DNA of 64,000 bases from Asterochloris sp. CNOR1 (taxonomy: Eukaryota > Chlorophyta > Trebouxiophyceae > Trebouxiales > Trebouxiaceae). How positions within the stretch are numbered: position 1 is the stretch's first letter; each line of letters starts with the position of its first letter. Both the position numbers and the translations under genes were made by a program. The stretch covers positions 558,001 to 622,000 of the forward strand of contig OZ017761.1 in assembly GCA_963969365.1 (NCBI GenBank), given 5' to 3'. Positions 1 through 64,000 of the stretch are shown piece after piece. The notes beneath the pieces were generated by a model. The model worked only from the letters and a program-made list of their open reading frames with translations. It had not been told where the DNA came from and searched no databases.

Positions 1-3000
1 CTCTCAGCCATGTGCTGCAGCTGCTGCTGGCTGGCAGCGCTCTCCATTGCTGTGACGCGGGCTGACAGCTGCTGCATGGTGTCCTCTGTGGCGATGCTGG
101 CTGCCTGCCGCTCGTCGGCTGCAGTCTCCAGAGCTGTCAGACGGGGCGCCAGCTGATTCTCCAGCCTCTGATTCTCCAGCCTCTGATCCTCCAGCCTCCT
201 CAGGCTGTCTGACACCTGCTGCAGGAGACCTGGCTGGCCCATGCTGCGCTCCAAAGCCTGCACCTGCAGGCAAACGCATGGAGCTTGCCCTCATGCCCAG
301 AGGGCGTAGAAAGATTTACCGCTCGCATCTAGCATTGCTCCTTCAGAGCCTGCACCTGCAGTCACGCAATTATTGCCATGAGCTCTGGCAATTGCAGATG
401 GTGCTGGTCGTTGCAGCACCTGAGACATATGGAGTTTTCCTCCAGGTGATGTACCTGCAGGCAACAGCCTTTGTCATGGCCACACAACATGTGTTGCTGA
501 CTGTAATGTGCATTGCTCAATCTGCACGTGTGCTTGCAGGTCTGTCCTGCATACAACAAAGGCATGCGCAGCAGCCCTCGGGCCCCCTCCCTGGGCACAA
601 TGTTGCTGAGTGACATACTGGCTATGCACGTGACGCATGTCCATACATGATGACTGCATTGCAATGCGTCCTGTTCAGTCCATGATACACATGTTGCTTG
701 TCGTTGAGGGAGATGCAAAGCAAGTCAGTCAACAGGCCACATCCAGAGTAGAGGGCATTCCCTCCAAGCACAGAATCTGCCTTTGAAGCAAGTGTGGCCA
801 CTGCATGCACCCACTGCATGCAGCCAGGGCACTGATGTCTTTGGCAACACAACCGGCTCAGTCCCCAGGCCATGACAAGCTGCTGCGCTCCCCTTACTCT
901 GGACTGGGTGGCTGCTACCACTGTGCTGTGAGCTGCCAGGGGGCCGCCACATGCTGTGGGCTGGGAAATGCTACTGCTGTGCTGTTCTTGAGTTCTGGTT
1001 CACAGCAAGGCACATCTACCTGGGTTTTGACAGCCAAGTTCATCTCTTTGAGGGTGTCGATGTCCTGCCGGTGCTCCTCCTCTGTGGCCACTGAGCGATT
1101 TTGGCACTCATTCAGCTCCTGCACGTGGTGCTCCTGCAGGCAGGCAAAGCTTTCAAGTAAGCATCAGATGCCCAGAGCTGCTGCACAGCGCTGGTCAGGG
1201 CGGTGCAGCAGCATATAGGCACAACTGAAGGGCACACTATGGCAAAGGTGAGTAGGATGCAGTTGCCAAGCAGCCCTGCACATGTACTTCAGCTCTGGTG
1301 ATTGTACGGAAAGTCTCGGCGTCCTGGACGGGTGAATGAGGCCATAGAAGATAGATTGTGTAGCTGCCAGAGCAGGCGAGCAGCCAGGAGCTGGTGCTTT
1401 GCTGCAACGCACCGGATCAATTGCAGAACAAATGGCGTGCCTGCTGCGTGCCCACTGTGTGCATGCAGGTCACTCCACCCAACAGGTGCCTGGTGCTGGA
1501 AGCGGACGCTGCCCTGCTTGCATCGTACCACCTCACCCCAGACATGGCAGTGAGAAGTAGCTGTGTCCAGCACATGCCTCAGGCTCCGATACTCACCAGG
1601 GCAGGGAATGTGCTGGCTGCCTGGTTCAGACTGGTGAGCTGGCTGCCAAGCTGGCTCAGCTGCTGGGACACCAGCTCAGGGATCTTCTCGTGCAGCTCCT
1701 GCAGCCCCCCAATCTTCTTGGAAGTCTCCTCAGAGGCGCTGGCCAGCCGCTCAGTGAGCTGTCGCAGCAGCTTGCTGGTGTCGCGGGTCATTGTCTCCAG
1801 GGTTTCCTGCAGCCGGTTCTGCAGGCAGCAGCAAGCAATCTGAAGCAAGAGTTGCCGCCACATGTAGAGTATGGACTGGGCCCCTCCAGTACTTGGTCCT
1901 GCAGGCAGCAGGCAGCCATCAAGGTCACTTGCAGGAACAGAGACTGGGGTCTCGATGCGGACTGCCAGCAGCTGCACCCACATGCAGCAGTGAGACATTG
2001 GTGCAAGGCCAGAGTGGTGCAAAGCATGCCGCCAGGTATAGGGTTACTCGTTCTAGACTCTGCCCCTCCTGCAGCCATTCCTGCAGGCAGGAGAGCAATG
2101 TTGCCGCCAGATGCAGAGGCTGCGGCCTTTGTCCCTCTGGGAGCCGCACCTGCAGGCAGCAGCACAACATCAGTGCAAGGCCTGCAGCCAAATGCAGAGG
2201 CGGAAGATTCTGCTTTATCCGGCGGCTGGGGTCCTGCAGGCAGCAGCAAAGCATTGTTGTCAGGCTTGCTGTCATATGCAAAGGCTGGAAGTTTGAACTT
2301 GCCCCCAGAATTGCACCTGCAGCACTGTGAGTACAACTTGACCGACACATCATAAGACTCTTTGCTCGCCACACATTGCATTGCTGCAGGGCAGCAACTT
2401 GTGTTGCACTGCTTGCCTTGCACAGGCAGGATGTGTTGCTGCTGTCGCAAGTTGCATGCACGATGACGCATCACAGCAGATCACCTGACGAGGGCAGGCA
2501 GCACTCATGTGCACCTTGCATTGCAGGCAACTGATCAGGGCAGGTCAGCTTAGGCTGCTGATTGTGAGGCCGTTTGAGATGAATCAAACACATGGAGAGT
2601 CTCGGACACAAGGGGGCGATGCAGGCAGATGCCGCCAGGCAGAGAGGCCTGGCCTGTTGCAGCCCAGCACCACCCAGCTATGCCTCCTGACGGTATGAAT
2701 GAGTTGAGTAAGTGCGCCCGGCAGCAAGAAAATGCAACTCCCACGTGCAGGTGCTCATCACCTCTATTCACAGCTGGTCCAGGTGGGTCTTGTCACTCAC
2801 CTGCTGGCCCACACTGGCATTCAGCTTGGTGGTGATGGCCTCGGAGGCAATCTCCTGCTCGTTGATGCGCACACTGAGCACCTGTGCAGGACAGTGGGGG
2901 GAAGGGATGGCGAACGGCCTGAATCAGCAGCCCTCAGGGCTGAATGGCAGAGACATTCCAATGCATGTCACTGGCAGGGGAGTGCTGTTGACACTCACCT

Positions 3001-3162
3001 GCAGCCCTTGGGCAACTGCCTGTATGAAACCGTTGCTTGAGGCCCTCTGCAAAGCAGGAGCCCAGTTGAGCATCAAGTCCGGCACTCTGGAGCGCTGTCA
3101 GGGAGTCAGTACCTGATGTAGACTGCCCTCTTAAACACAATGCTCACCTCTGTGGCGCTCAT
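1..3162 (-). CDS. Coiled-coil protein, N-terminal part (cut by left edge)
   Basis: I do not recognise the family. Six exons in phase 0 can be read on the minus strand: 3148-3162 (ATG, reads MSATE), 2999-3046, 2801-2881, 1597-1818, 1020-1133 and 263 down to the window edge. Each has a GT donor and a CAG acceptor. Joined, they give about 248 residues of mostly helical heptad-like sequence rich in E, Q, L, S and T, for example LLRQLTERLASASEETSKK in exon 4 and a triplicated RLE(D/N)Q block in the last exon. The start is the only in-frame ATG after an upstream stop. No catalytic motif, signal peptide or membrane segment is visible. A structural or scaffold role is inferred only from composition. 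An extra small exon in the 1819-2800 intron cannot be excluded. It is divergent to the FAD-dehydrogenase gene across a 1.3 kb spacer. Confidence 0.66.
163..207 (-). repeat. 15-bp in-frame repeat x3 inside coiled-coil exon
   Basis: Three tandem copies of ctgattctccagcct (the third has one change) encode RLENQ-type units on the minus strand. They extend the coiled coil by five residues per copy without a frameshift. Confidence 0.9.
1819..2335 (-). repeat. Intronic tandem array of splice-acceptor modules
   Basis: The acceptor of the 1597-1818 exon is CTGCTGCCTGCAG on the minus strand (plus-strand ctgcaggcag at 1819). The same module recurs at 1899, 2081, 2150 and 2233, with a weaker copy at 2326. 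Neighbouring words such as gttgccgcca.atg and gatgcagaggctg also recur. Spacings are 80, 182 (about 2 x 91), 69, 83 and 93. Each copy keeps an AG acceptor. The array lies wholly inside the intron. Confidence 0.8.
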
Positions 3163-3350
3163 GTCGGCCAATGCTGTGGCAGTATATTGTTGTTGAGCAG
3201 CGTTGCTTGACTTTCCTCGCTCAGTACCTTTGGTATGGGAGGCTCCGATGTGGGCGATTTAGAGCTTGATGGCTGAGTTTCTGCGGCACGTAAAATGTTG
3301 TGAGGGTCAACTCAAACTGGCCACAGCTGCGTCGCAATGTAGTTTCAGTG

Positions 3351-3414
3351 CCTATATGCTGCTATATATATGTCCCACATGTGGCATGTCCCTATATGCA
3401 GCTATATATATAGG
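3351..3414. repeat. AT-rich direct repeat, TATATA-containing
   Basis: Two copies of a cctatatgc(t/a)gctatatata block start at 3351 and 3391, 40 bp apart. The palindrome CCACATGTGG lies between them. It sits about 200 bp upstream of the minus-strand ATG and could be core-promoter DNA or a transposon scar. Confidence 0.7.
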
Positions 3415-3559
3415 CTCGCCTTCGATTGACGGGGCTACGTTCCAGCAGGGCTCCCGAATTCGCACCCCCTCGAACTGGATTCACGAAATCTCTGAAGTCC
3501 TTTGCATTGCGTGAACCACAGCTCTACTTTGAGGGTATCCCTGGCAGGTGAGCACCCAC

Positions 3560-4491: not shown

Positions 4492-7400
4492 ATGAGTTTG
4501 CTGGGCTGCATACCTGAGCAGCAGTTCATCAGAGTGAAGAGGTATCAGAGCCACCATAGGGCTGCTGGCATACGACAAGTCACATGCCGTGCGGGGGCTG
4601 CTGAGAAGCCTGGCGAGAGTCCATCTAAAAGGCCATCTGACAAGGCACCTCAGAGATCTAGGCGGCAGAGCAGGCAGCAACAAACAGATCGAACTGCAGT
4701 CAGCACTGTGAGCAGCCGGCATGCAGAGTTGTTCAAGTGGTCGCCTTAAGGAGCATCTATGCTGCCATCCAAGTTGCCTCAAGTTGCCTGCCAATGGAGT
4801 GGCCTATGTAGAACATGCACTCTGTACCTCTTCCTGCAGGCAGAGCCCTTCAACCGCTGGCGCTTGTATGGAATCACACTGTCGGTGAAAGAAGACCTTG
4901 GCAAGGATGACCACACTGTGTCACCCGCGCTGTGCCAGGCAGTGTCTGCTAAGCTGAGTGCGCAGAGCCAGGTGTGGCTGCTGTCCCTCAGCCCGTCACG
5001 CCCATGCAGCACATCCTTTGCTTGGAGGGGGCAGTCCATGCAGCCCGTGCATCTGCTGTGGGGGGCCTACATCCTGGAGCAGCAGCAGCAGCATGCAGCT
5101 GCTGAGGCTCCCACTACATGCTGCCCCATTCGTAGGGTAGCCGTACAGCCAGACAGCTGTATGCCTGCCTGCAGATTGAGGGGCATCACATCTCCATTGT
5201 GCGCAAGTCATTTGATGCCCGACGCAGCCATAGGACCTTCACGTACATTGTGGACGTCGATGCTGCAGCTGTGCGGGCTGCAAATGCCAGGCCGCGTGCA
5301 CGGCAGGGGCAGCTTGAGAGGTACAGGCCAGGCGGTGCTGTGGGATGCTTTGTGGCGCTGGGTGTGCAGACGCATGATCGATTTCGCAGCTGTGCGGGCT
5401 GCCCATGCCATGCCGTAGGAGGTGCAAGCCTGGGCCATGCTCTGGGAGCCTTTGCTTCTCCAGCGTGTGCAGCTGCTGTGAGTGATTGCACAGCTGTGCA
5501 GGCCATCTGTGGCAGGCCACGCGTATGCAGTGGCAGACTGTGAAGTGCAAGATGGGAATCACAGGCAGAGCAATGCATGCAGGAAAACTCTCCAGGTTGT
5601 ATGCTCAATGCCCTTTTCTCTGGTATAGACAATCTCAGGATATCTCACCATCTATACTGCAGGTCCTCAGTCTACTGTGTCAGCCCAGCTTGGTCCTCAG
5701 GTGTGGTCTGTCCTGTTGTGCAGGGTCCAGAATGACATCCCCTTCCAGCTGCAGCAGCCTGCCCCTCCATCACTGGAAGCCGTCCTCAACCAGCCCACTT
5801 CAAGAAGGGACCCTGTTATCGTCATTGGCAGGTGACATGCATACCCTCAACAGCAGCACGCGGCCAGCTTTCATTGTGTTTGCCAGGCAGCACCTCACTG
5901 GCGTCCAAGCAGAGCCTTGCTGGCCATGCCTGCTGCTGTGATGGGGGCAAGCCTCATGCTTCCAGAGTCGTCTTCTGGGCCAATGGCACGCATGTGCTCT
6001 TCCACACAGCGGCCTGCCTATGCCAACAGCAAATCAGCAAACAGTAGGGTGTGACTGCACTCTGCTGAAGGCACTCTGGTTCCAGTCCATGTGTTCTGCC
6101 TTGCAGCGGCCCAGCAGGCCTGTTTGCAGCCTTGGAGATGGCACAGGCTGGGCTGCCAGTGGTGCTGCTGGAGCGGGGCCAGCCTGTAGAGGTGCGGGGG
6201 CGAGACATAGGGGCCCTCCTTGTGCGCCACAAGCTCAACCCTGACAGCAACCTCTGCTATGGTGAGATCTGAGGCAGAGGTGCTGTTTAAGCTGCCTGGC
6301 TGACATACTGAGTGCTGGGTTGTAGTGAGCCGCAAGCTCAGCGCTGAGCAAGGCTGCTGTGATGACTGGTGGAGTGGCCTTGCTAGGCCCCACTCCGCAG
6401 TGGAAGAACGCTCTCCTTTTGACGCTGTACATGACCAGCAGTGCATGAAGTGCAGCAGCTGCTGTTGGTTGTTGGTGAGCGTTTCATTGCTCTGCAGCTG
6501 CATCTTTGTGTGGGGGCTGCTTTGAGCACAAGACATTTGCAAAAGCAGGCTGTGCTGCCCTGCAGGCGAGGGCGGGGCTGGCACCTGGAGCGACGGCAAG
6601 TTGACCACACAGGTGGGCGCCTTGCTGTGCCTCTGTTGTGGCTGGCCGGGGCCATGGTCCGGCTGGTGCCCATGCTGCTTGACCATCAAAGGCTGCCATG
6701 AGGCAGTTAAAGAGGCATGCAGGGCTCTCTATGGCTTTGAGCGTCATTGTGAGCCTTGCTGCAGCACTGGGTGTTCACAGAGGTGTTTGCCATGCAGGTT
6801 GGTCGCAACGCCGACCCCGTGCGCCGCGTGCTCCAGACGCTGCACGCCTTTGGCGCTCCAGAGGTGAGCTGTGGCCTTAGGGCCCTGATACCCCCACAAG
6901 ACCACATGCCAGTCCTTTCTGCCGCTACACTTTGCACCAGGGCCACAGTCCTCGCCCAACTTTCTGACCTACAGGCGTCTGCCAGGCAGCCCCTGGCCAC
7001 AATCATCTTTCACGTGCTCCACCCGCTGCTTGCAAAGCTGCAAGCAGGCCGCGTCCTTCTGAGAAGAGAGCCCTCCAATACACCCAGACCGGCGCTTCCT
7101 GCTCCTGCAGAAACTTGTGGCGGCTGGCGGGCACCAGCTGAGCACTGATGGTGTGTAGCCCCTGCAGATGCCTCAGGCTCTGCATCTGCTGCTGCTGCTG
7201 CTGCAGGACATCCTGGTTGCCGGCAAGCCCCACCTGGGCACAGACCGTCTGGTGCGCATACTGCGACGCTTTCGGGAGCACCTGCTGGCCCTGGGGGTGC
7301 AGGTGCACTTTGGGGCCTGCGCCACAGACTTTGCCATTCAGAACAGTCGTGTGACGGGAGTGCAGCTGAGAGGTGAGGGTGCTGAGGTGCAATGGGTGCA

Positions 7401-10400
7401 GCGGCCGCCAGGTGGCCAATGGGGCATTGGTGCTTGCACAGGCGGCCCAGCACCAGTAGCAATGCGCAGCTTGAGCTTGCGCACACACGCCAACATCGGA
7501 AGTGGCACATGGCTGTGCAGCTCATTGGCATGTCGGCCAGCTTCTGCTAGCGGCAGCATAAGCAGCACATGGCGCCGCTGCAGAATCTTGTGCTATTGTC
7601 GCTTTGCCACATTGCTGCCTACAATGCTCCTGCACTGACCGAACATGCAAGATCCTCCTTGTCTGCCCAGCAGATGACCAGCAGCTGTGCGCCACAGCAA
7701 TCGTGCTGGCAGTGGGGCACAGCGCCAAGACCATGCCCCCGGCATACTTCACTGCACCACCCTTGGACCGTACCTGCAGCTGAGACATGTCGCTGCCCTG
7801 CAGACGGCGAGCTGCTGCGGGCCTCAGCAGTCGTGCTGGCCGTGGGGCACAGCGCCAGGGCCATGTACAATACCCTGCACCAGCGCGGGGTAGCAATGAC
7901 TGCCAAGCCCTTTGCTGTGGGCTTCCGCGTGGAGCACCCCCAGGCTGTCATTGACAGCATCCAATATGGGCAGGAGTACGCAGCAGGTGGGGTGAGGCCC
8001 AGCAGTGTGCAGCGTGCTGCTGGCTATTGGGCACCATGGGTGTCGTACTCCAGGGGGAACAAGCCGCCTTGAGTGTGTACAGAGCCCACCAGCGCTGTAG
8101 CCGAGCAAACAATCTGCTCACACGCTGCTTGAGACTGTGATGTGACCGTCAGACTGGGCAGTGGGCTCAACGGCTTCTTCCCAAACTGAAGCCTGCTGCT
8201 GGCTGCCGGCCTGGCTGCCTAGGTGCATATGGCAGGAGTGCTGCACTGCCAAAGATTGGCCTGTGTTTGGACACTTCACATTTCTGCGGGTCGTGTCTGA
8301 TTTGACAAGCTGCGGCTCCTGAGGGCTGTCGGAATTAGATGAGCAGATGCTGCATGCTGTGCAGCATGATACACCCGTAGCCACAAAGAAGCAAGCCCTC
8401 TACTCATGCCCGGCAAGCAGCACATGCCAAAGTGCTTCTGCCACTGGACATATGGGCTCTGTGAGAGTCAAGATCTGAACCATGTGCATGCAGAGGTGCA
8501 TCGGGGCAAGGGGCGCATCCCTGTGGCCGACTACCGCCTGGCAGCAGACGTGCTGCCAGAGTGGTCCAACATCGCCCCCAGCACCGTGCAGCAGGCAGCG
8601 CAGCGCTTGGGCGCTGCTGCTGCTGCCAACTCTGAGCCACAGGCCGCCCAGCCAGATGCGGGTACCAGCCAGACTGAAAACAGTGCAGCAGCAGCTGCCA
8701 TGGTTGCTGATGGCAGGCGCAGCAGTGACCCCCTGGCCCCAACCGGCACCGCCCCACTGCCTGGCAGGGACGGCAGTGCTGCTTCAGCTCAAGAGCATCA
8801 GGCTGACACTGCCAGCCGCCAAGCGCTTGGCAGGGAGGGCAGTGCCCCTCAGCAGAAGCAGCCAGGCCCCTCCGACAGCCATAGCCTTGCCAAGCGAGGC
8901 GTGTATAGCTTCTGCATGTGTCCTGGAGGACAAATCGTATGTACCAGCACCTCAAGCTCAGAGCTGTGCATCAACGGCATGAGCTTCAGGTCAGCGAGTG
9001 GCGCTTTTGAAGCTGCATCTGAGGCGAGCAAACGCCTTCCATGCTCACCGCTCTCAGTGCATGGCACATTGCAAACGTCTTGTAGTGGCCAAACCTGCTG
9101 CTCTCACTCGCCACCTGGTCCCTCATCTGACCTGCATGCCAGACCAACATCGCAACCATGCCAACAAAAGTCAGGCGTTCCAGCCTGCCTGACAGCAGCA
9201 GGCCCTGTTGCAAGGAGTCCCTGTATGTGCCAAGCAGCAGGGACGGCTGCATCATGTCCCTGCATGTGCTGAGCAGCGCCACCTTGCTGCTGCAGTCGGC
9301 GCAACTCGTTGTGGGCCAATGCAGCCCTCGTGGTCACAGTACAGCCGTCTGACTGGGCCCACCTGGATAAGGGCAGCTCCCCCCTGGCCGGCATTGAGCT
9401 GCAGCGCAGCATTGAAAGGTACCTGCTGCAACTGGCATCTATGATCAAGAGCTTGCTGTCCTGCTCCACCAGCACACTGTCCTTCAAGGAGGTGCATGCA
9501 ATCACTATCTTCCGCACATGTGTCTGTTCTGCCTGGCAGGGCTGCTGCTCTGAGGCTGCTGCTTTGATCCCCTTGCTGGCAGCAGCATACCAATGGCCTC
9601 GTTGCCTCTGCAGGACCGCTGCACAGCAGGGCGGCGGTGACTTTGTTGCCCCGGTGCAGCGTGTGACAGACTTCCTAGCTGAGCAGCCTTCCACTGGCAT
9701 CCTGCCGACCTCATCCTACAGGTCAGCTGCCAGGCAGGCCCACTACTTTGTTGTGCTGGTGCAGCATTTGAGCTGGCCTGCAGGGGTGTCCCAGATCAGC
9801 TGCACTTCATGCTTCCAGCAGCTGAGTCCCTGTCCAGGCGGGGAGAAAGTTGCTTGCTCACACAGGTCAGTCAGCAAGGCCAGATCGGGTGTGTCTGACT
9901 CAGCAATGGGGGACCTCTTGAAATGCACAGACACCGCTGTGGTGTGGCTGTTCGTGCAGCAACGTCCACTGGAGGCGGGTGTCCTGTCAGCCTCTTGTGC
10001 ACTGAGTCTCCAAGGTCGCTGACCTGTGTGTTCAGCACGCTTGTGGTTGCATGCAGACTTGGAGTGAAGCCTGCCCTACTGCATGAGACGTATTCCCAGC
10101 CGTTGACCAGTGCCCTCAAGAAGGCCATGCTCCAATTTGAGCGGCGCATGCCAGGCTTTGCCACAGACGTGGGGCTGCTTCATGGTGTGGAGACAAGGAC
10201 AAGTGCCCCGGTAAGGATTCGAGGTGCTTGCTGACCCATACCTGCAACCTTTTCAGTCGATGTAGCTCAGGTCCACTTCAATCCATCATGAGGACCTCCA
10301 GCAGCAGGTTTGAGCCGTGACCTGTCTATGCAGGTTCGTGTGGAGCGCACAAGTGCATTTGAAAGCACTTCCATCAAAGGGCTATACCCATGCGGCGAGG

Positions 10401-10788: not shown

Positions 10789-13700
10789 TTATGTCTCTGG
10801 CACCTTGCATTCATCGTCACAGATGGCCAGGTCAGCCAGTGCCCCCTGCCCCTGCCCGCAGATGTATTTGCGCATAGCAGGGCGCATGCTGAGGTTGAGC
10901 AGGGCATGGATGGCATTGTCGATGGGGTGCACAATGAAGGGGATGGCTGCAGGCAGGTGGAAGCAAAAGTGAACACTTGCATGCATCAGGCAAAGGATGT
11001 CAACCATGGGTTGCACAATAAAGGGGAAGCTGCAGGCACGGCAGATATATGTCTGAGCAGGGGTATTGGAGCGGGAGCAGTTCTGTGCATGGAGACGAAT
11101 GCTGTCCTGCTGCAGATGGCATTGAGAGGCAGGGGCAAAGCTGTAGCTGAATCACAACAGGGGGAAATGCAGCAGCACTGGGCAACAAGGGTGCACGTCC
11201 AAAGCACTTGCTGCAGACTTCAGCCAACTGCAGGCCTGCAGCACATGACTGCCTTCATGCAAACCTGACACTGCACACGTAAGCTGCTGCATATGGTAGT
11301 CCAAAGCAATGCCACCCATGCCAGGCCAGAGTGCCACTGCACCTCACAGCCCAGCTGTTGTGGGTCAGACAGTAACTGTGGCAGTGGAAAGCAGCACAGC
11401 ACCACACCTGCCAGCCCTGCTGCTGTGGGCACAGACTTGTCAACGGTGGTGAGCAGCACGTCTGGTGACATGCTGACAGTGGGCGCTAAGCTCTCAAACA
11501 CATGCTTGACGGACTCCTGGGCTTCAAGGGGTACCAGGCCAGCATGTACCAGCGCCACAACTGTGTGAATGGTGTAGCCTGCAGATCACACAGGCCAATG
11601 CTCAGGTGTGGCTCGTCTTCAGCTATCCATGAAGGAAGTGGCTGCTTGCCCGACTGTTATAGTGAACGGCACAGCACCAACAGAGAAGAGGCAGGCTGCA
11701 CAGGGGCCTTGCAAGACAGCCGACCGCAGCCCATCTGTCGACTGCTGCAGCCTCTTGGACAGCTCAGGCAGAGGCTCACCTGGGCAGATGACTGAAGCCA
11801 GCAGCTGCCACACGATGGTGTCCAGGGCGCGCTCAAAGCTCAGCAGCTTGCTCAGCCTGCAGACAGCAAGTGACAAAGTGTGCTGCGTATGCAAGGTGTG
11901 GAGCGAACACATGCAGCAGGCTTTGCAGCATACGGCCCAGCAGGCAATGGCCCAGCAGCTTTGGACCTCCTGAGCAATGCACCAAGCATGAACAAGGGTC
12001 CTCTGACAAGATGCTGCCCGGGGACCATGCAGAAGTGTCGCTGGCATGCAGCCATGCCCATGTCTGGGGTCCACATCATATTAGCGTGGCTGTGCCACAT
12101 GTGTGAATGTGGCAGTCAACGACCTGCAAATGCACCTGCAGGTATTGACCCATGGGTGCAGGGCCCTGTTGACCCTCTGCCAAGGCATGTGGCACGCTGC
12201 AAAGCCAACTGTCTGCCAGCCCATCTGCTGCGCTCAACCCTTGCATGCAGTGCTTCACCCAGCCTAAGGCAAGGATTTCAGTGTGTTGTGATGTTGCAAG
12301 ACAAGCCAGTGTGCCACCTCAAGCAGTGAGGCTGTATCAATCACACAGCGGCAGTCCAGGCAGCTGGCCTACAGTACTCCTGAAAGGGCACACGCTGATC
12401 AAACAGAGGGCAACACCAGCCAAGCACATTGCCAGCCAACCTGCCACGGTTGACCTCCGGGTGCAGCTCGCCATTGGCACCCAGCTCTATGTTGGCCGCC
12501 TGAAAGGCCTTGGCTCCCTTGTCGATGGTGTCAACAAGGACGTAACTGATCGCGATGCCATAGGACAGGGGCACGCCAAAGGGGGGAATCCAGGCTGCAA
12601 AGGCCTCCCTGCACAGGAAGCACACAGACATGAGATGCTGTGCAGGGGCACTCACATGCGGCTTGGCATGGGCGCATTCTCACACTGTGAGCTCTGCTGC
12701 ACCAGCAGGTGGTGCAACATAAGCTGGGCCCCAGCACTGACGCCGTCAGGCAGCTGAAGGAGGCCCTAATATGCCAGATTTTGTGAGCACTGAACCGTTG
12801 AAGAGCAGAAGGTGGCGGCATGCCACACCTCTCTCTCTATTTCCCAAATGTTGCACCGCCCAAATGAAATCTGGTCACCCTCCTTGGCTGACATGCAGTG
12901 CAGCGAGCAAGGCAAAAGCTCACGTGCACTCCATGGTGTGGCCAAGGAACCGCTGGGGCCTGCTGAACGAGCAGAGATGTCGGCAGTGCGCAGCATTGTA
13001 CCCAGCCAACAGAGCTGGTCCCCCTAATGGGCGTGGCCAGGGGTCATTTGTGCAGGGGGCAAAGCCGTTGCTGCTCCTCCCCATGACTAAACTCCTAACT
13101 ACCCAGATGCTTCAGCTGTTACTCGTTGGCTTCAGTCTGCGCACCATGGGGGGCGGCGCCCACAGCACAGTGAGTCAATCTTTTTGGCACCTCACATCTT
13201 GTCACTGCCTCCGCTTGAAACCTTATTGGCATTTGGGGTATGACTTTTGCAGAGACGTTCCTTTCATTTGAGCCATGCAGGCGACAGGGCTCACCCGCAC
13301 TCGTTGGCATAGCCAAGGTACCGCAGGGGGCCATCTCGCAGGGGGTCAAACTGTGCTGCCTCGATCTTCTCCTCTGCCTCCATCTGGGGGGGTGCGTCAG
13401 GCACAGCAGCGGCCTGTGTGCTCAGGTCAATGCCGGTCATGGACGACAGCTTGTCAGCGGCCTTGGAGGCCAGGCGCCGCAGGGGCCCGCGCACCGCCAC
13501 CTTTGGGAACTCTCCAGGGTCCCTGCGGACAGGACAGTGCATGGGATTGAGGAGACTGCCCAGCGGTGCATGGATTGATGTGTGGCCGGCAGCTGCCAGC
13601 CGGTGTTGACAGCCTTGGAGGCAAGGCGCCGCAGGGGCTGACGCACTGCTACCCCTGGGAAAGGGGCTCAGGCCAGTCAGTCAGCTGCTTGACGGGGCCG

Positions 13701-14392
13701 ACTTGCTGCTTGGTGGTGAGACTCAAGCAACACTGCACTGCCACCCTCAAGAATTACCTAGGCTCCTGCAGGTTCTGAATAGCATATGCTGTTCAGCAGG
13801 GACTTGCGGGCAACCTTGGAGGCCATGCGACGCAGGCGCCTGCGCATGAGCATCTGGCACTCCTGAGGTCGCTGCTGGCAGCCAGGAACCACTGCCCCCG
13901 CTCACATGGTAGTCAACAGCAGGGCGCCAGCTCCTCAAGTTCAGACCCAGTACACACCTCCACCATCACCAATATGTGCAATTGCCAGGCCTACCTGATT
14001 GAGCAGAGCATCGTGCACAGGCGCATGCAGCCCGCTACTGACCACACCTGCATCCCTTCACTGCTCGGCCAGTGGCTGCCGCTGAATCAATCAGCAGACG
14101 CGTTTTGCAGCCCCTCACTGATGGCATACCTGACAGGAAAGAAGCCGCCCTCCTCTTCGTTGTTCTCTCGAGGGTAAAGGTCTGCTTCACAGTCGTCCCC
14201 GGGCTGCTGTGCCTGGCTGCTGGCACGCTCCTTTGCTGCTGTGGCACATGTCCTCAGGCCATGCCTGGTGTGCCTGTGATGTCTGATGGGTCTGCTGCTG
14301 CCTGCCTGCAGCTGCAGGAAACCCTGACAATGCTGACGGGGAGGGGCAACTGCCTGCCTCTGTCCAAGTGCAGCAGGGCACATTTGTGCCAT
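10789..14392 (-). CDS. Mitochondrial fission process protein 1 (MTP18) family
   Basis: Six exons on the minus strand: 14130-14392, 13295-13522, 12441-12608, 11780-11856, 11408-11578, 10789-10946. Phases close to 354 residues. The family signature spans exons 2-3 (LRYLGYANECGEAFAAW, about 153-169), followed by YGIAISYVLVDTIDKG, the DTIVWQLLASVICPG segment in exon 4, HTVVALVHAG, and IPFIVHPIDNAIHALL near the end. Human MTFP1 is an inner mitochondrial membrane protein affecting fission, so a mitochondrial or plastid membrane role is inferred. The first about 65 residues are basic and acid-poor, like a targeting peptide, and make the protein longer than the animal form. Exon 2 begins with a basic LRRLASK element that also occurs, degraded, twice in intron 1. 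It shares a divergent promoter region with the rhomboid gene. Confidence 0.9.
10995..11075 (-). repeat. Copy of last MTFP1 exon start inside intron 5
   Basis: The true acceptor at plus 10947 is followed on the minus strand by CCATCCCCTTCATTGTGCAC. A copy with an acceptor at 11030 (83 bp offset) reads CTTCCCCTTTATTGTGCAAC, with one base deleted, so the frame gives LPFIVQPMVD. A fainter copy may sit near 11156-11178. Confidence 0.83.
13598..13862 (-). repeat. Two copies of the LRRLASK exon inside intron 1
   Basis: The functional exon has FPKVAVRGPLRRLASKAAD (about 13450-13510). Intron 1 holds FPGVAVRQPLRRLASKAVN (about 13603-13660) and MLMRRRLRRMASKVARKS (about 13793-13852). The anchor ccttggagg falls at 13461, 13613 and 13814 (offsets 152 and 201). 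The middle copy is very close to the functional one. Confidence 0.9.
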
Positions 14393-24293: not shown

Positions 24294-24298
24294 TTACA
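24294..24298 (-). terminator. Candidate TGTAA poly(A) signal, coiled-coil gene A
   Basis: Minus-strand TGTAA 96-100 nt past the stop codon at 24394-24396. Confidence 0.45.
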
Positions 24299-51900: not shown

Positions 51901-54900
51901 TAGCTCGCAAGAGCACAAGACCACCCAACAAGCTCAAGCTACAGATGCCACAGTAGCAAGTGCTGCTCAAGTGCTCGACATGGCAGTTGGGCACCAATGC
52001 CCACCCTTGCTCAGACCGCAGCTGTGCAAAGAGAGGGCGGCACAGCCCACCTGGAGAATGGGGAATGCCGCCGCTGGCCACTGCTGCCTGGGCTTCAGCC
52101 AGCTGGGTCTCAAGCGCAGTGACACGGTCCTGCGCCTCTTGCAACTGCTGCTGCAGAGTGGCATCCTGGGCCTCAACCTCTGCCAACCTGGCCTTCAGCT
52201 CAGCTGTGGCCTGCAGCAGTGCACACATCTTCAGCAGAAGAACGTGTTGCTAAGCCATCAAACAAGGCGCTTTGCACAACAAAGCGTTGCATGGGGCAGC
52301 ACCATCAGGGCCGCTGAAGAAAGGCCTGCAGAAAGGCTGAAGCGGACCTTTTCACAGGCAGGTGAACAGCTTGTGCACAGCCCATGTGCAGCATGGAAGG
52401 ATGTCCCTGCTCCCTTCTAGCATGTGTTCAGGCGACGTCTGCCACTGTTGCTGCTGCTACCTAAATGCAGACATGTATCCCACTTAAGCCAGTTGTCACA
52501 TCGAAGTTGCCACGCACAACGGCAGGACCCTGCCCAAAGCAGGCTGGCAGAGGGGATGGGTCACCTGGGCATGAGCAGCCTCAGCATGTGCCATCTGGGC
52601 AGGGAGGTCCTGGAAAGCCTTCAGCTGAGCCTCCAGCTGCTGCAGTTGTGACTCCAGGCTGGCACGAGCCTCCTGGGCAGCCTGCTGCTCCTCTGTGGCC
52701 CTCCCAGCAGCCTCTTGGTAAGCACCAGCCTGTGCCTGAATGGAGGCCAGCTGGGTCTCGAGCTCCGTGCAGCGGCTCTGAGCTTCTGCGGCCTGTCCCT
52801 GGGCCTGCTGCAGCTCTTCCTGCCCAGCCTGCTGCTCAGACAGCAGCGCATCCAGCTGCTGCTGCAGCTGGGAGGCTTGTAGCTCAGCCTGGGAGCTTGC
52901 GGCATCAGCCACATTCTTTGCCTGCAGGATGGCACATCAACAGGTCAAATGAGTGAAGTAGTTGACCGCACCCAGCTCCAAAGGTGAAGGAAGAAAGGCA
53001 GGCAGTTGCAACGGAGGGGACATGAGTCACCCTCGCAGTTCTGCACTGAGAGATCTGGTTCGTGTGGGTGTACCTGATGCAACTGCTCCTGCAGAGCCTC
53101 GCTCTGGGCAGCCAGATGCTCCTGGGCGCCCTCCGCCGCCTGCAGGCTGCCCTGTGCCTCTCGGTACTGCTCCTGCAGCCTGACGTGCACCTCACGGAGC
53201 GTGCTCAGCTCCCCCTCCACTGCAGTAGCAGCCTGCCCGCGCTGCTCCTCCTGCTCAGCAGCTGCAGTCTTCAGCTTGGCCACCTCAGCCTGAGCCATTT
53301 GCAACTGCTCCCGGGTTGCCTGCAGCTCTGCTGCATTGGCCCCCTCCCTGCTGGTGCCGGACTCTGCAGGAGCAGGCTCAGCAGCACTGGAGGCCCCTTC
53401 TGTACTATCATTGCTGTCGGCAGCAGCACGATCAGCAGAGGACTCCTCAGCGCTTGAGGCAGGGACCTCAGCGCTGCTGCTGGCATGGGCAGCCGCTGAG
53501 GCCGCCTGCTGGTGCAGGCGAGCCACCTGCTGCTGCAGCTGCCGGCAGCTGTGCTCGGCACGGTCAGCTCGCAGGATGGCCTCCTCCCGCTCAGCCGTGG
53601 CCTTCGCCAGGTTGGGGCCTGCAGCAAGCAGCAATAATCTCAATGAGCGCGTCAGCAAGGCACAGAGTGCTCAGCAGCTGCCCACACGAGCGATGCCTGA
53701 TTTGCATGCTATGCAGGTGCCGCAGGATGACCTCATCCTGTCAGCAGCCACTTTGGGGTCTGCAGCATGCAGCGTGCAGCATGACTGGTTGTATGCACTT
53801 ACATGCCAGGTAAGCAGGGGGAGCCTCGCTTCATGCCAGCAGTGGGCGGCTTGCTCCTTAGCAGGCCTGACAAGGCAGAGGTGACCGCAATGGCCAGGCA
53901 AATTGTCCCGTTTGTTGGGCACCCCAGGAGGCTATGCTGCCACCCAATTGCAAAACAACCTGCTTGGGCAAGCGCATGACATCACTGACCTGCTTTCTGG
54001 GCAGCCTTGGAGGCCTTGATGCGCTCCGTCTGCAGCTGCCTGGCCTCCATGGCCTCCTGCACACTGGCTTCAGCAGCCGACAGCTGCTCCTGCAGCAAAG
54101 CTTGCTGCCCCTGCAGACCCTGCACCTGAGCCTGCAGCACCAAATGAACTTGTTGGGCGGAGGATTGCCAACTTGCCCAGTCCTGCAACAGCAGCACTGG
54201 TCTGCAGGGCCTATACCCAGTCTGCAGCATGAAGCTGGCTGGTAGCAGATTTACAGGTGCAATGCACAACAAAGCCTTGTAGGGAACGCTGGCAACAGCA
54301 AGTGAATGACCGCATGCCTGGGTGCACTGACGACCTGACACCGTCCTGAGCAGCAGGCAGGCTAGAACCCTCCTGTGACCCCGCTCAGCAGTGGGCAATG
54401 CCACACTGCATGAGGTCTGAGACTTGCATGCCCCTGAACAGACACCAAACAACAAAATCCATGCAGTGTCAACCACGACACCATGTGAGTGACGCGGACA
54501 AGTAGTGTGTGGAGCGCCTCCCATTCACCTGCATCTCCTCGGCTTCCTGGTCTCGCTGCGCGATGAGGTGCTCAGCCTTCCCAAGCTTGGCCCTGCATGC
54601 ACCAGCAAGCTGTGATGTTGACGCTGTATGGCAAGGCAGATGATCCAAGTGTGAGACGGGATGAAGGTGGCAGCCCTCCTGGGTCAATATTGCTGTGCAT
54701 TGATTGCTGGCCTTGACTCAGCATGCCGCAGGCGAGGGGCTTCAGAGCCACAGCAGATAGGCCCAGTGACATTGCCCTGAGCCTGCAGCTGAACAGAAGC
54801 CTGGCTGCCTCCCTGATCAGGTAGGCTTGTTGCGCTGGGTGCCATGAGGTGCCATGCCGCCCTCTCCCGGCAACACCCCACTGGCCAGCCACATGGTGTG

Positions 54901-57900: not shown

Positions 57901-60900
57901 CCAGTTCTCAGCTCACACCCGGTCTGAAGCTTAGTGTCCGCCTGTTGCTTCCCCCTGCAGGATTGCCGCAGGGGCCGTTTTGCTAAAAGCCCAGAGCGAG
58001 GCCCAAACCCCACCTCCAGCTGGCCCTGCAGCTCTGCCTTCTCGTCCCGCTCCCCTTGCAGCATCTCCCTCAGGTCGCTGATCTGTCCATCAGCGTCCTG
58101 CTGCACCCGCTCCACTGCCTGGGCAGTCAGCTCCACGGCTCGGAGCTCAGCGGCGTGAGCACGCTCCTCTGCAGCAGCGGCCGCCTGCAGGCAGGTAGAG
58201 GGCAGCATGTCACTGGGCTGCAGTGGTGCAGGTGGGTACTCTGCCTGCAACTGCACAGCAGCGTGGGGTTTGGCAGCAAAAGGGATCTGCAGGCAGACGA
58301 GAGCACCATCTCAATGGGCTGCAGCTTGACAATGGCTGCATTGCCTGTGGGTGCTCAGCAGTGCAAGCTCGCTGCTTGGCAGCAGCAGAGACCTGCTGAC
58401 AGGAGTGCAGAACTGCACCAGGCTATCAGAGGGACAAGGCTGAGCTCGTTGCAGACCAAGTATCCAGGTGTACTCAGCACAGCCAGCAGAGGCAGGGCCA
58501 CTGCAGACAGCTCGCTCAAAGGTCCTGTATATAAGCTTGCAGCCACCAGCCATGCACCAGCACCTGCGACGGCTGCCTGGCTCAGGAACAATGATGCCAC
58601 ACCTGAAGCGTCATTTCAATCTCTGCCTGCCTCCCAGCAACTTCTGAAGAGAAGGCAGACAGACCCTGCGTCAAGAGCATGTGCCTACACCCCTTCATAG
58701 CTCACCTCAAGCTCTGCCTGCCTCTCAGCAGCAGCGTTCTGCAGCTCCCCAAGCTGGGCTTCAGCAGCAGCGGCCCGGGCAGTGGCCTCCTCAGCCTCCC
58801 GCTGAGCCTGCTGAGCACGGCTGGAGTCCTGGCTGGCAGCCGAGTGGGCTGCTGCCAGTTGCTCCTGCAGAGCCTGCTTCTCTGCCTGCAGCTGCTCCAC
58901 TGACTGCTCGCTGCTGAAAGCGCCTGCAGCCAGCTCTGCCTGAGATGTCTGCGAGGCCTTGTCTGCAAGTTCACCAGCAGCTGCTGCGCTGTGGGCAGCG
59001 GCAGCTCGCTTTAGGGAGGCATCCTGTGATGAGGCGCTGCGTGCCTCCAGGTCAGCATGTCTGGCCTGTTGCTGGCCTGAAGGGCTAGCAGCCTCTTCAT
59101 GCTGCTGCTGGAAGGCCTGCAGCTGCGTCACGACAGCATGTAACGCCTCCTGGCCCCCTGCTACAGCATCAGCAGCCTGCTGCTGCCAGGCCTCGGCCTG
59201 AGCAGCATCTGCCTGATCTGCCCCATTGTCGAGGGCACCGTGCCCCTCATGCACAGCGTCAGCAGCCTGCTGCTGCCAGGCCTCGGCCCGAGCGGCGTCT
59301 GCTTGGTCTGCCTCAGCCTCCAGGGCTTGCTGCCCCTCATGCACAAATGCAGCAGCCTGTTGCTGCCAGGTCTTAGCCTGAGCGGCGTCTGCCTGGTCTG
59401 CCTCAGTGCTGAGAGCATCGCGCCCCTCATGCACAGCGTCTGCAGCCTGCAGCTGCCTGGCCTCAGCCTGTGCAGCGTCTGCCTGGTCTGCCTCAGCGGC
59501 CAAGGCATCCTGTCCCTCCCGCACGGCAGCAGCAGCCTGCTCCTGCACATCCTCCACAGCAGCAGCCTCTAGTGCAGGCTCTGCGGCAAGTCGGGCGCCA
59601 GGGCTGCCTGGCTGGTTTCCCTGGGACACAGACCCTTCCATGTCAGTGGCCCCAACGTCAAACTCATCCCAGCCCTCCGCAGCCTCTGCACTGGGCTCCT
59701 CTTCGGCCTGGTGCGTTTGCAACACCTGGGAGCTTGCCTGCACACCAGACAGGATGTATGTGAGAATGACTGCACCATCACCGTAATTCAGGTGTGGTAC
59801 GACTGCTGGCCGTAGACAGGTGCCTGCCTGCAGTCAATGCTGATTGGCATGCAGCGCAGCCCTTTTCCTGGCATGTCGTCAGAGCCCTCCAAGTCCTCTA
59901 GACAGTGCCAAGCAACAGACACATAAGCAAGCTGGCCCTGCAGGCCCCGCCTGCCCCAGCGATTACAAGCATGCACAGCATGAGCTATGTGTTCTCCAGG
60001 ACAGCAAGTTAGTGCCCACCTGCACAAACTGAGAACCTGCTGACTGTGTCTCCCCTAGCGGAGTGCACTGCAAGCCAGCTGTCGCCCCAGTGCAATGCAT
60101 TTCTGTGCACTACCAGGCGCACCTCTGACTGAGACTCCACATACGCAGTACTGGAGCGCTTTTCACAGCAAAAGAGCCCACCTCTGAACCCACCTGCATA
60201 ATGTCACAGCTGACAGATTCTGCCCAGCGCTGACTGACATCCCTCAAGTCCAGTCCAGTGCAGCGCAGTGCAGTGCGGTGCAGCGGCAGGCACAGGCTGT
60301 TCACAGCAGGAATACACATCGTATTACCTGCATGAGCTCAGAGTTGACAGAATCTGCCTGCCCCAGCGCTGACTGAGAGTCCACAGCAACGGCAGTGGAG
60401 TGCATGGGCTCCCAGGCAGCATCCTCATCGTCTGATCCGCTGCCAGGCAGGTGCTGCTGGGCTGCTGCTGCAGCTTCACCATGCTGGCTGCCAGACTCCT
60501 GCAGGCAAGACGCATACAACTGCAAAGACTGTGCCCACCAGCCAGGCAGGAGAGCTAGGCCACTGCAGCATGTAGTCTGCCCACGCTGCAGGCTGCTGCA
60601 GGCAGCGCATGGGACAGCTGAGGCACCGCCAAACAGGGCTGCTGCTTGGTGTGCCCAGTCCGGTCAACAAGACAATGATAAAGCAGTCAGCCCCCTCCTG
60701 ATGCTGGGTGCACGCAGCTACGATCAACCTGTCAACAGCTGAGGGTTCTCCAGTGTGCATACCCAAAACCCTCTTGTGCCCTGTTGAGCTCCATGCAGGC
60801 TGGCAACCAAGTGACGCTGCAGTGCCAAGCACAAAGGCTGCTCTGCACATGCACAGCAGCCAGAACTACAAGCACAGGGCTGTGCATGCACCCGTTTACA

Positions 60901-63900
60901 TGACAACCCAGTTCACTGTACAGCTTGAGGATTGAATCAGACACAAATCTACATACACACCACCAATGACACATCCCATTTGCATAGTGGCAAGGAACTG
61001 TGCCAGCCCCAGGGTCAGCAGCATCCCACAGAATAGGGCTGTGCAAGCCCTCACCTGCGCAACATCCATGTTGTCTAGGGGAAAGTCATCATCCCAGCCC
61101 TCAGGGTCGGCTAGCTGCTCTGATTCAGCTGCCGCTTCCCCGCCACTGTCTGCTGGCCCTGAGCCATCCTCCCAGCCCTCAGGGTCTGCCGGCAGGTCAG
61201 CCTCCGCCAGCCCCTCCCGATTGCTGTTTCCCAGCGCTGACTCGTCAGTGTTGGGGTGCACAGTGTAGACAGTATGGGAGGCAGGCTGACTGGAGGCCTG
61301 AGCATTCATCTGCTCAGCAAGTTCAGCCTGCTCCTCGTCTTCAGAAAATTCCCCTGCACAGGCGGTGAAGGGTTGCTTTACTGGTTGTCTTGACCACAGA
61401 GGTGACGCCTTCAGCTGGTTGCCGCTGATGCTCAGCTGAGGCGATCTGCATGCTCATGCAGACAGAGTTCACCATGAGCAGGGTACAGCACCTACGTAAT
61501 GCTGTGCCCAAGCACCCTACAAGCACAATGCAATAGCCACTCTCTGCCGTTGCAGCTCCAAATGCTCTGGAACAACTTGAAAGGAGCTGGGCATGTGCAA
61601 CAACTTCTGTGTGCACGGGGAGGCACTCTGCACCCCACGTCTTTTCAATCAGCGACTCCAAGGGCAGTCCAGGTCCCACACACAATTGGCAGACACAGCA
61701 GCCTCCATCACACCCAAGACGACACTCAGACTAAAGCAGTCCCGCCCTTCCTTGCAGCTCCCATTCCCAGACGTTGGCTGCCTCCCCCACTGCACCATGA
61801 CAGCATTGCCCACCTCTACCATGGCGCTCCCATTGGTCAATGTACTGCTGGACGAAGGGGCTGGGCTCCCGCACAAAGCTGTTCTCCACCTCATCGCCAT
61901 CAATGTCAGGGTTGTCCTCAGCAAACTTGTCCCACATCTCATAATGCTTCCTGCACGTGCATGGCAGCTCTCCGCAGCATACCTGAAGTTGCAGCTTGAG
62001 AGACTGCACCCCTTCTTTATCATGCTTTCTGCAGCAGCCCAGCTCCCATAGCTGATCAAGTGGGCAGAAACTGCGACAATCAGCCAAGGTCCAGAATGTG
62101 GCAAAAGTGAATGGCAGCCAGCGGCTCTGAGACACTCAGCATCACCCAGGATGGGCAAGCCTATGTGCCTGAGAACTGTGCTGGCCAATGATGAGCGCAT
62201 GCTGTAGCACAGGATGAACTAGCATGGAGGTCAGTTGCGCCTGGAGTCCCAACACAGGATGCCGTGCTGTCAGCACCTACACCCTTGATTGCAAGCAGAT
62301 GCATCAGCACTGCCTTGATCAGATGACAGACTATCAGTACACCTCTGTAAAATGTAGGCAGCACAGGCCATAAATGCAGGCCATTGATGCCTTCTGAAGC
62401 CAGAAGCTTGCCTGATGTGGGGTGGGCTACGGGACTTGCAGAGCTCAAGGATCTCCTTGTGTGACATCAACCCACGGGCGTTGGGGCTGTTGGGCGCGAG
62501 AGCCTGGCGCATGTTACTCAGCACATTGCGTGACTGCTCCTACAAGCAGCAGGGCAATGCTTCATTGACATGCTGCAGGTGGGAGGGGTGCTGGGGGTAT
62601 GGCCTGGCGCATTTTGCTAGTCAGAATGAGTGACTCTCCCGCAAACAAGCAGGGCAGAGACTGGCCGAGAGGGCATTAGGCAGAGTGCATGGCAGCTGCA
62701 CACACAGTTGGGGTGCTGGGCACTGAAGCGTGGCTCACAGCCTGCTATAGGCTGTGATAGTTGCCCTACTGGGGCACAAGGGTCCCCTTGAATGGTTGTG
62801 CACAAGTGGCAGCCTCAATAAGTCAGCAAGCCTTTGCAGATGCAGGTGTGGCACAATGCCAGCTGACTTACAGCGTTTGCTGAGGCCATAGCAAAGTGGC
62901 AACTCAGCAAAAGCTTCAAAAGGCATGTGATGCACCATGCAAGCTAACCTGCAGGCCGCGAAGGCCCTCCGGCAGCCCCAGCCCTCCCAGGGCCCCCCTG
63001 AGCACTCCAGTCACCGCAAGGCCACCATTCTGCGCAGCGTCCCCGCCAGCGTCCTCGTTCCCCTCGTGCTGAGCACTCTCCATTGCCGCAGCCCCATTTG
63101 GCAGGGCTCCGTTGGCGTGGGGGGCGTATTCCACGCTTTCTGGGGTGCTGGCTCCTGATGAGAGCCACGTCTCATCGTCGTCTTCACTCAGAGCCTCTGC
63201 CCAGGGCCAGGGGCCTGCATCGCATTTCAGACTGCATCTGAGCAACTGAGAGGGGCTGTGCATGGGTTGTGATGGTTTTGTATGTAGAAAAAGGATTCCA
63301 GCTTGGTACAGGTCAAGTGCTGTCTGTCCTTGAAACATCCTGCTGCATATCACAGACTGCATCTCAGCGACTGATGGAGGCTAGCATCCAGACTGCCTGC
63401 GGCGCTTCCAGCACTAGAGCCCTGCATCAAGTAGGCTAGCTGTAATCACACTGGGATTGTTCCGCAATGTTTGACAAGAAGTTGCTCTAAGAGGTGAATC
63501 TGTGCTAAGAACATACAGACCTGTATGCTCCAGGGCTAGAGGCCTGCGCAGGCAACATGTCAGCCCGCTGCAACAAATTCTGCTGCGGATGGCAGCATGT
63601 CCAGGCCCTCACTGTTGCTGTACAAGCTAAGCATTCAGCGCTGCTGCTGGATGATGGTTCCAGAGCCTGGGCTGAGCAGATAGTTTGCACTTCTTTGCTC
63701 ACCTCTGAATGTTGAACAAAAGCCTGCGCTCCTGTAACGCTTCTGTGATATGAGGAGGCAGTCGTCACTTGAGCTCAGCAAGAGCCCATGTAGTTGCAGT
63801 TTCGCCCCCTCTGGTCTTCCGTTCTGGATCAGCCAGTGTTGCAAGTATGAAGCATGCTTACCTTTCATAAGCAAATAGCTTACCTTTCATCTTGACCTGC

Positions 63901-64000
63901 TCCCGCAGCTGCCGGCGCTCCCGCGGTGTCATGGATCTTATCGCATCCTGCCTCTGCTGCTGCTGCTCGCTGGAGGCAGAGGGCCTGATCCAGTCGGCAA
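48914..64000 (-). CDS. Giant coiled-coil protein B with acidic N-terminal region (5' end outside window)
   Basis: Family not recognised. Phase-checked exons from the right: 63884-edge, 62949-63214, 62412-62539, a following exon ending about 61820, 61055-61353, 60328-60498, 58706-59737, 58014-58184, 57491-57628, 56595-56687, 55749-55868, 55345-55461, 54926-55083, 54529-54592, 53990-54131, 53074-53618, 52565-52921, 52051-52210, 51650-51774, 51325-51459, 50796-50900, 50298-50438, 49522-49709 and 48914-49048 (TGA). The joins near 49.1-50.3 kb are incomplete. The N-terminal part has MTPRERRQLREQVKMKG and a conserved-looking SPPHIRKHYEMWDKFAEDNP block, then acidic stretches with EGWEDG, EGWDDDF and EGWDEFD. 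From 58.7 kb leftward it is long E/Q/A/L coiled coil. A membrane-traffic tether is conceivable but unproven. Confidence 0.68.
49013..49175 (-). repeat. Pseudo-exon copy upstream of last exon, gene B
   Basis: The last exon starts after CTGCAG with VTYLTSLLVEQHG (from 49048 leftward). About 122 bp upstream on the gene strand, after another CTGCAG (acceptor near 49170), the intron reads VTSLIPSLVMQHF. The plus-strand anchors atgctgc.tcaccag and aggtgacctgcag are shared. Confidence 0.88.
51100..51365 (-). repeat. Exon-tail and donor copies downstream of exon 51325, gene B
   Basis: The exon tail (plus-strand cctgggcacgcg at 51351, donor side gcttgcctgcag) has copies anchored on cctgggca at 51286, 51193 and 51105. 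Most are flanked by gc(t/c)tgcctg(c/t)ag-like words. Steps are 65, 93 and 88 bp. All lie in the following intron. Confidence 0.85.
59171..59540 (-). repeat. 90-bp in-frame tandem repeat x4 in exon 58706-59737
   Basis: Anchors agcagcctg(c/t) fall at 59171, 59261, 59351, 59441 (tgcagcctgc) and 59531, exactly 90 bp apart. Each unit encodes 30 residues of the form ADQADAAQAEAWQQQAA followed by a HEG(x)(x)AL linker, extending a helical region. Confidence 0.95.
60119..60345 (-). repeat. Exon-tail and donor copy downstream of exon 60328, gene B
   Basis: The exon tail (tgcatgagctcagagttgac, then agaatctgcctgccccagcg) is copied 135 bp into the following intron (ctgcataatgtcacagctga, then cagattctgcccagcgctga). 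The copy keeps a GTGGGT donor. A weaker fragment (tctgactgagactccaca) lies near 60124. A GCAGT-type minisatellite occupies about 60258-60286 between them. Confidence 0.83.
62590..62660 (-). repeat. Pseudo-exon copy upstream of exon 62539, gene B
   Basis: The exon start region (gcctggcgcatgttactcag, then gtgactgctcc and the acceptor) recurs 100 bp upstream on the gene strand (gcctggcgcattttgctagt, then gtgactctccc). The copy's acceptor is degraded to GCGG. Confidence 0.85.
63210..63375 (-). repeat. Acceptor-region duplicate, gene B
   Basis: gcat.(c)gcatttcagactgcatctgagc near 63218 is repeated as gcatatcacagactgcatctcagc near 63344 (about 127 bp), within the intron before exon 62949-63214. 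Confidence 0.75.
63857..63890 (-). promoter_or_regulatory. Tandem 5' splice sites 22 bp apart, gene B
   Basis: cttacctttcat occurs at 63857 and 63879, giving two identical ATGAAAG|GTAAGC donors on the gene strand after VKMKG. Using the distal one would add 22 nt and shift the frame, so the proximal donor (exon end 63884) is preferred. Confidence 0.75.

Follow-up and report, generated by a model that had tools for sequence, protein, structure and literature searches.

Introduction

Intron gain by tandem duplication has been reviewed (PMC3443670), and the case nearest to the one described here is a single duplication in a potato RdRp gene. There, one recent tandem duplication over an intron-exon boundary gave a new intron with a new donor, and the splice signals were passed on from the acceptor of the parental copy (Ma et al. 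2016, PMC4974935). In the Drosophila cases, as summarised in that report, a small tandem duplication combined with splicing leaves the protein unchanged, and the whole unit becomes an intron (PMC2891723). Introners, which are presented as agents of large-scale intron change in many eukaryotes (PMC9860276), form dispersed families. Here we analysed a stretch of 64,000 nucleotides from the alga Asterochloris sp. CNOR1 (assembly GCA_963969365.1, contig OZ017761.1, hereafter C16, positions 558,001 to 622,000; "the window" is this whole stretch), in which many introns contain decayed copies of the edge of the neighbouring exon.

Like the potato event, the duplications proposed here would cross intron-exon boundaries and carry the signals of the parental acceptor; however, the alga appears to hold many old events, mostly with no new intron position. 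The protein would stay unchanged as in the Drosophila cases, whereas existing introns appear to lengthen in the alga. In contrast to introners, the two algal introns searched match nothing elsewhere. Scale and age set the alga apart from the known junction duplications, but the mechanism does not.

Judged by titles and abstract openings, no report of this pattern in an alga was recognised among the papers listed for it, which is not proof of absence. A genome-scale study reportedly tied internal duplication to intron change; it shares the genome-scale link to intron change with the present case and differs in its reported focus on duplicated coding segments and new introns.

Copies of exon edges are pervasive in adjoining introns

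The sample consisted of the window (C16:558001-622000) with 100 kb on either side (264 kb), to which nine CCT chaperonin loci from eight further contigs were added because their exons have Pfam homology anchors. Genes for the RuBisCO small subunit and for light-harvesting proteins on large contigs place the genome in the green lineage, of which a nuclear small-subunit gene is a mark. A home-made gene finder was trained on the nine CCT loci and run on the 264 kb, predicting models without RNA. It recovered 56 of 56 homology segments, the same segments being its training set; unsupervised training was dropped because tiny exons were over-predicted. Of the 527 modelled introns 525 were used, and two in short gene models were dropped.

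Exon-edge copies in the adjoining introns are real and pervasive. Without any gene model, 248 ungapped self-matches (score at least 18, lag 40-499) were found in the 264 kb, against 5 at 460 control lags (3000-3459). In the window and in both flanks, self-similarity at lags of about 50-300 bp exceeded that at lags of at least 3000 by a factor of tens. With gene models, 360 same-strand pairs (score at least 17, lag 20-499) stood against 7 at 480 control lags of 2500-2979, where short gene models contribute less. The matches gathered at splice junctions: of exon bases 1-15 downstream of acceptors, 12.6% had an upstream partner, compared with 2-3% across most of the intron 150-300 bases upstream.

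The earlier note, which had described this pattern from the letters of the window, named two outcomes that would refute it: no excess over shuffled introns, or similarity explained by low-complexity CTGCAG words alone. Seeds that leave out the splice site and were chosen on exon bases alone were used in 523 introns (two with too little exon were dropped). These seeds found copies in the own intron for 68 of 523 acceptors and 68 of 523 donors. The same edges against other introns cut to equal length gave means of 2.6 (acceptors) and 3.0 (donors) in five permutations, and dinucleotide-shuffled own introns gave 4-6 and 2-8, so that the excess stands. When CTGCAG/CAGCAG/CTGCTG-type words were masked, 39 of 523 acceptors and 41 of 523 donors still had copies, against 0-3 in the shuffles. 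Both refuting outcomes are thus answered. It is scarcely credible that the copies represent low complexity of the CTGCAG type, although CTGCAG-like words are the acceptor consensus, or introner-like or transposed sequence: when two introns (one of them 7373..7803 of the window) were searched against the genome (56.4 Mb, 21 contigs), both matched only themselves and their own next exon. The tandem duplication, local origin, decay and pervasiveness that the earlier note had proposed are supported.

By exon-only seeds, 121 of 525 introns bear copies: 17 of 152 in the left flank, 32 of 118 in the window, 54 of 167 in the right flank and 18 of 88 in the CCT loci. The share in the right flank (622001-722000) is about three times that in the left flank (458001-558000). 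In the window, 31 of 118 introns in seven of eight gene models are affected on both strands at a score of at least 17, and the earlier estimate of about twenty introns in at least five genes on both strands was, if anything, low. Exon-only seeds give 32 of 118 introns in six of eight models, the model at 1-3162 then being without a copy. Most edges have one copy (60 of 79 acceptors, 50 of 58 donors), and the maximum is four. The cases in the CCT loci are convincing on inspection. One intron in a CCT locus (L026, 1784-2101) contains an array of four decayed units of acceptor plus exon start, some of them nearer to each other than to the exon, indicating that copies of copies also fed arrays. 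The gene models place the functional copy at the outer end of an array, in line with the earlier note, in which the copy at one end is usually functional.

The copies are non-coding and decay at all codon positions

The copies sit in the adjoining intron and mostly in one order, with 87 pairs of intron copy before acceptor edge against 5 reversed, and 33 pairs of donor edge before intron copy against 2 reversed. Over the four classes that pair an exon or edge with an intron, the lag modulo 3 was distributed as 51, 73 and 65 of 189, with no excess of multiples of three; exon-exon repeats were in frame in 42 of 45 cases. Mismatch by codon position was 0.204/0.210/0.274, so all positions decay. 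After removal of CpG the values were 0.190/0.203/0.243, and the third-position excess stayed (bootstrap 0.019-0.074). This excess implies that the functional exon has drifted since the duplication, which excluded a further candidate, that the copies were born divergent; the intronic copy is thus free to decay, whereas the drift of the exon is presumably synonymous. The likeness fades about 40-60 nt into the exon.

Position in the adjacent intron, lack of frame register and decay at all codon positions together mean that the copies are not exons, and coding copies were rejected on the latter two grounds. The earlier note had mentioned that exon duplication can make mutually exclusive exons. The copies do carry exon edges, often with AG, as would exons that the models had missed, whether alternative or mutually exclusive; but the lags are out of frame, edges and not whole exons are copied, and the copies do not amount to complete, in-frame exons with splice sites of their own. 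We regard such missed exons as highly improbable. The copies are local, non-coding and neutrally decayed copies of exon edges.

That the copies nearly always carry the AG or GT, as had been claimed, is too strong. With exon-only seeds, A matched in 72% and G in 70% of 53 near-junction acceptor copies, and G in 48% and T in 35% of 52 donor copies. Within the exon parts, TGCAG words were kept at 0.85, the splice AG at 0.77-0.89 where the copy reaches the junction, and CpG words at 0.61. The AG is retained because TGCAG words decay slowly, and no function is needed. Special conservation of the AG was considered and dropped: the first values of 0.92-0.97 were an end effect of maximal segments and disappeared with exon-only seeds and a control for TGCAG mutability. 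Repeat-induced hypermutation was also rejected, with 311 transitions against 277 transversions, and 79 of 240 CpG changed, 53 of them by C>T or G>A. In one donor-edge copy of the right flank (C16 ~668171, lag 119), similarity is higher in the intronic part than in the exonic one, the reverse of what was expected.

Splice junctions probably stand out mainly by preservation

At lags of at least 65, edge pairs number 191, against 69 intron-intron pairs, of which 49 are not linked to an edge copy. In a simulation, uniform duplication with uniform ages predicts a ratio of edge to intron-intron pairs of 1.17:1, and intronic-flank retention of 0.53-0.59, whereas continuity of the duplicated unit into the intronic flank was seen in 19 of 104 near-junction copies, by eye only in some of the better-kept ones. 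We fitted an age distribution to exon-seed scores and identities only, using 164 of 167 copies (three with a lag below 65 were dropped) and 14 free age classes, with ages in model units. The fit places most events at 0.5-0.7 intronic substitutions per site and a smaller group near 0.2. Without any bias to edges it predicts flank retention of 0.15-0.18, close to the 19 of 104 seen, and 25-46 intron-intron pairs.

Edge pairs stay readable because an intron-intron pair decays on both sides and an exon-intron pair on one. The focus on splice sites is therefore mainly an effect of preservation, and a splice-directed process was dropped as a necessity, since it is required only under uniform ages. 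Our favoured explanation is that the copies are probably, for the most part, old neutral fossils of small tandem duplications along genes, in introns and exon edges alike. Tandem duplications, mostly of 65-300 bp, would strike genes along their full length. When one includes an acceptor, splicing would keep to the downstream acceptor with its exon start, and the upstream copy would turn into intron; when one includes a donor, the upstream copy would stay in use. The intron would gain one unit with the protein unchanged, and the intronic copy would decay neutrally. Duplicates within introns would lose both copies and fade fast, while exon-edge duplicates would keep one frozen reference.

A filter by splicing would give another account of the lags. 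If splicing can remove a duplicated unit that begins in GT and ends in AG, junction-spanning units above the minimal intron would be tolerated and shorter ones purged. In its favour, donors with copies have exon edges ending in AG more often (48 of 58, against 274 of 467, p=0.0003), and edge lags below 65 are rare, yet 32 of 101 intron-intron pairs lie below 65. However, other donor positions lean likewise, so that model quality may explain the AG effect, and exon starts in GT differ less clearly (22 of 79 against 86 of 446, p=0.10). At the older ages, detection alone would leave 6.7-9.1% of edge lags below 65, and 5 of 100 were seen, so that the scarcity of short edge lags is as expected. We consider this filter improbable, and the stricter proposal that duplicated units must exceed the minimal intron length was dropped on the same ground of detection. 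The 32 short-lag intron-intron pairs have a median identity of 0.84 and perhaps represent a separate, younger, minisatellite-like process.

The duplications are probably mostly old

To the earlier note the pattern looked like a continuing habit of the genome, which our results do not support. Steady-state duplication predicts 73-79 copies with a seed score of at least 28, and 9 were seen; its likelihood is lower by 73-108 log units than that of the fitted model, which has many more parameters. Ungapped pairs with at least 90% identity over at least 40 nt numbered six in 309 kb, all within exons of one gene, none involving an intron; nine shorter intron-involving pairs reached 90% over 30-35 nt.

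An ongoing process aimed at splice junctions, through directed duplication or selection for junction copies, would keep making new ones. The 191 edge pairs against 49-69 intron-intron pairs, where uniform ages predict 1.17:1, speak for it, and so do the gapped matches of at least 80% identity, among which one of 16 is intron-intron in a BLAST self-search blind to lags under about 90. Two arrays across a splice site, at C16 ~522306 (left flank, lags 61/122) and ~672502 (right flank, lags 76/108), also hold four copies (of 167 edge copies) that reach 90-93% over at least 40 nt with gaps. But old ages alone yield about the same ratio, and neither the lack of closely similar ungapped pairs involving introns nor the misfit of the steady state agrees with ongoing production. 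An ongoing junction-directed process is accordingly unlikely in our judgement.

Introns have probably grown, and intron birth is rare

If an intron is born by duplication, the lag of the repeat is expected to equal the length of the intron, and the 5' end of the intron to match the start of the downstream exon. Among 167 copies, only four come within 20 nt of the intron's far end: one is convincing and one possible by eye, and two have near-minimal scores. The convincing case (C16 ~499836-500051; L009 ~1836-2051, left flank) is a 215-bp intron with a lag of 217, whose ends match at AG/GT, CATGCAG/gtccgcag being matched by CTTGCAG/GTCCGCAG. The possible case (C16 ~501962-502112) is a 150-bp intron with a lag of 139. 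With these two cases in 525 introns, intron birth by these duplications is rare, and duplication of an exonic AGGT segment (a Rogers-type model) is very improbable as the main source of the copies.

For 55 acceptor copies, the intron length minus the lag was never 20-100 nt, as if the intron had been viable beforehand. Introns that hold acceptor copies also have the greater length (a median of 491, compared with 321.5 in introns without any copy), which is weak support because longer introns give more room for matches. Growth of existing introns by these duplications is likely, and of the intron birth or growth that the earlier note had raised, growth is thus the part that we retain. We infer that each copy stems from a tandem duplication over the junction, that splicing uses the outer site, that introns were lengthened in this way and that a past wave of such events is largely over.

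Several observations weigh against this account. The fitted ages predict 137-174 edge pairs, fewer than the 191 observed, and only 25 interior pairs when the indel rate is highest. The 0.8-2.7 fitted events per edge hinge on the assumed indel rate and are concentrated at the oldest ages that can be detected. The excess of edge pairs, 191 to 49-69, is well above the neutral expectation for uniform ages, and direct continuity into the intron is visible in just the 19 copies mentioned above. Among donors, 3 of 53 copies imply an intron of 40-80 nt before the duplication. The two gapped arrays are distinctly younger than the other copies, and some events thus came later. The gene models are our own, made without RNA, and come from one genome. 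That the wave has ended is drawn from a simple model and this one genome, and recent strong selection may have removed young duplicates.

Copies in the window

The following introns of the window contain edge copies (intron coordinates, strand, copy and lag).

264..1019, minus strand: acceptor-edge copy 341-364 (lag 92); weak, missed by exon-only seeds
1819..2800, minus strand: acceptor-edge copy 2067-2093 (lag 262); weak, missed by exon-only seeds
5321..5723, plus strand: donor-edge copy 5378-5415 (lag 121)
6864..7206, plus strand: acceptor-edge copy 7099-7155 (lag 96)
7373..7803, plus strand: acceptor-edge copy 7663-7735 (lag 130); top-scoring edge copy of the window
10947..11407, minus strand: acceptor-edge copy 11006-11027 (lag 84); donor-edge copy 11335-11364 (lag 65)
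13523..14129, minus strand: acceptor-edge copies 13612-13661 (lag 152) and 13803-13846 (lag 353)
26592..27253, minus strand: acceptor-edge copy 26661-26690 (lag 113)
27461..28140, minus strand: acceptor-edge copies 27513-27559 (lag 103) and 27599-27670 (lag 192)
28267..28999, minus strand: donor-edge copy 28747-28796 (lag 269)
31189..31667, minus strand: acceptor-edge copies 31255-31284 (lag 80) and 31460-31546 (lag 342)
34629..35218, minus strand: acceptor-edge copies 34895-34932 (lag 295) and 35001-35029 (lag 392)
35416..35902, minus strand: acceptor-edge copy 35453-35512 (lags 90-91)
36098..36614, minus strand: acceptor-edge copy 36156-36209 (lag 130)
37141..37586, minus strand: donor-edge copy 37412-37444 (lag 206)
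37837..38043, minus strand: acceptor-edge copy 37895-37941 (lag 74)
39567..40064, minus strand: donor-edge copy 39855-39893 (lag 250)
40338..40577, minus strand: donor-edge copies 40393-40472 (lag 195) and 40513-40552 (lag 98)
40626..41200, minus strand: donor-edge copy 41004-41041 (lag 193)
41689..41956, minus strand: donor-edge copy 41810-41860 (lag 134)
43841..44283, plus strand: acceptor-edge copy 44151-44178 (lag 122)
44445..44996, plus strand: donor-edge copy 44570-44594 (lag 158)
45699..46191, plus strand: donor-edge copy 46000-46019 (lag 315)
46579..47089, plus strand: acceptor-edge copies 47003-47025 (lag 74) and 46911-46933 (lag 175)
47735..48319, plus strand: Tub-family gene; donor-edge copy 47925-47961 (lag 239), likeness extends into the intron
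49049..49521, minus strand: acceptor-edge copy 49157-49176 (lag 121); donor-edge copy 49403-49460 (lag 125)
50439..50795, minus strand: donor-edge copy 50652-50696 (lag 132)
53619..53989, minus strand: acceptor-edge copy 53747-53773 (lag 141)
58185..58705, minus strand: acceptor-edge copy 58350-58403 (lag 208); donor-edge copy 58611-58639 (lag 91)
59738..60327, minus strand: donor-edge copies 60192-60224 (lag 134) and 60110-60159 (lag 244)
62540..62948, minus strand: acceptor-edge copy 62602-62656 (lag 100)

In the top-scoring copy (7663-7735), the exon part is 86% identical and the likeness reaches into the intron tail; the exon after this intron matches a FAD-dependent protein family. When 20 window exons were searched against Pfam, 3 gave matches above the curated cut-off (FAD-dependent C-terminal, purple acid phosphatase N-terminal and Tub), 3 gave weak matches only and 14 were without a match.

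The model at 14708-23173, which contains the purple acid phosphatase exon, has no edge copy in any of its 27 introns, either at a score of at least 17 or by exon-only seeds, in agreement with the earlier remark that the phosphatase introns held no convincing case. This model has the lowest score per exon in the window. With its 28 small exons, purple acid phosphatase N-terminal domain and weak rhomboid match, it perhaps merges two genes. A 90-bp tandem repeat at 59148-59546 (4.4 copies, 77% matches) lies in a long predicted coding exon and is probably a protein repeat rather than an intron copy.

Discussion

Intron growth is usually unreadable since both intronic copies decay. An exon edge is a frozen reference, and it turns growth into a datable record. 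The same property calls for caution, as a striking pattern at junctions is possible without any junction-directed process.

A bolder extension of the fossil account is that a past wave of 65-300 bp duplications touched nearly every junction, supplied much of the intron length and then all but stopped. It is suggested because the fits give 0.8-2.7 events per exon edge, a model-dependent extrapolation, and we hold it as a tentative and somewhat doubtful idea. If it is true, the introns of this alga would derive largely from ancient copying of their exon edges and neighbours, exon edges would serve as clocks for intron growth, and a comparison of related algae would show that growth as counted events.

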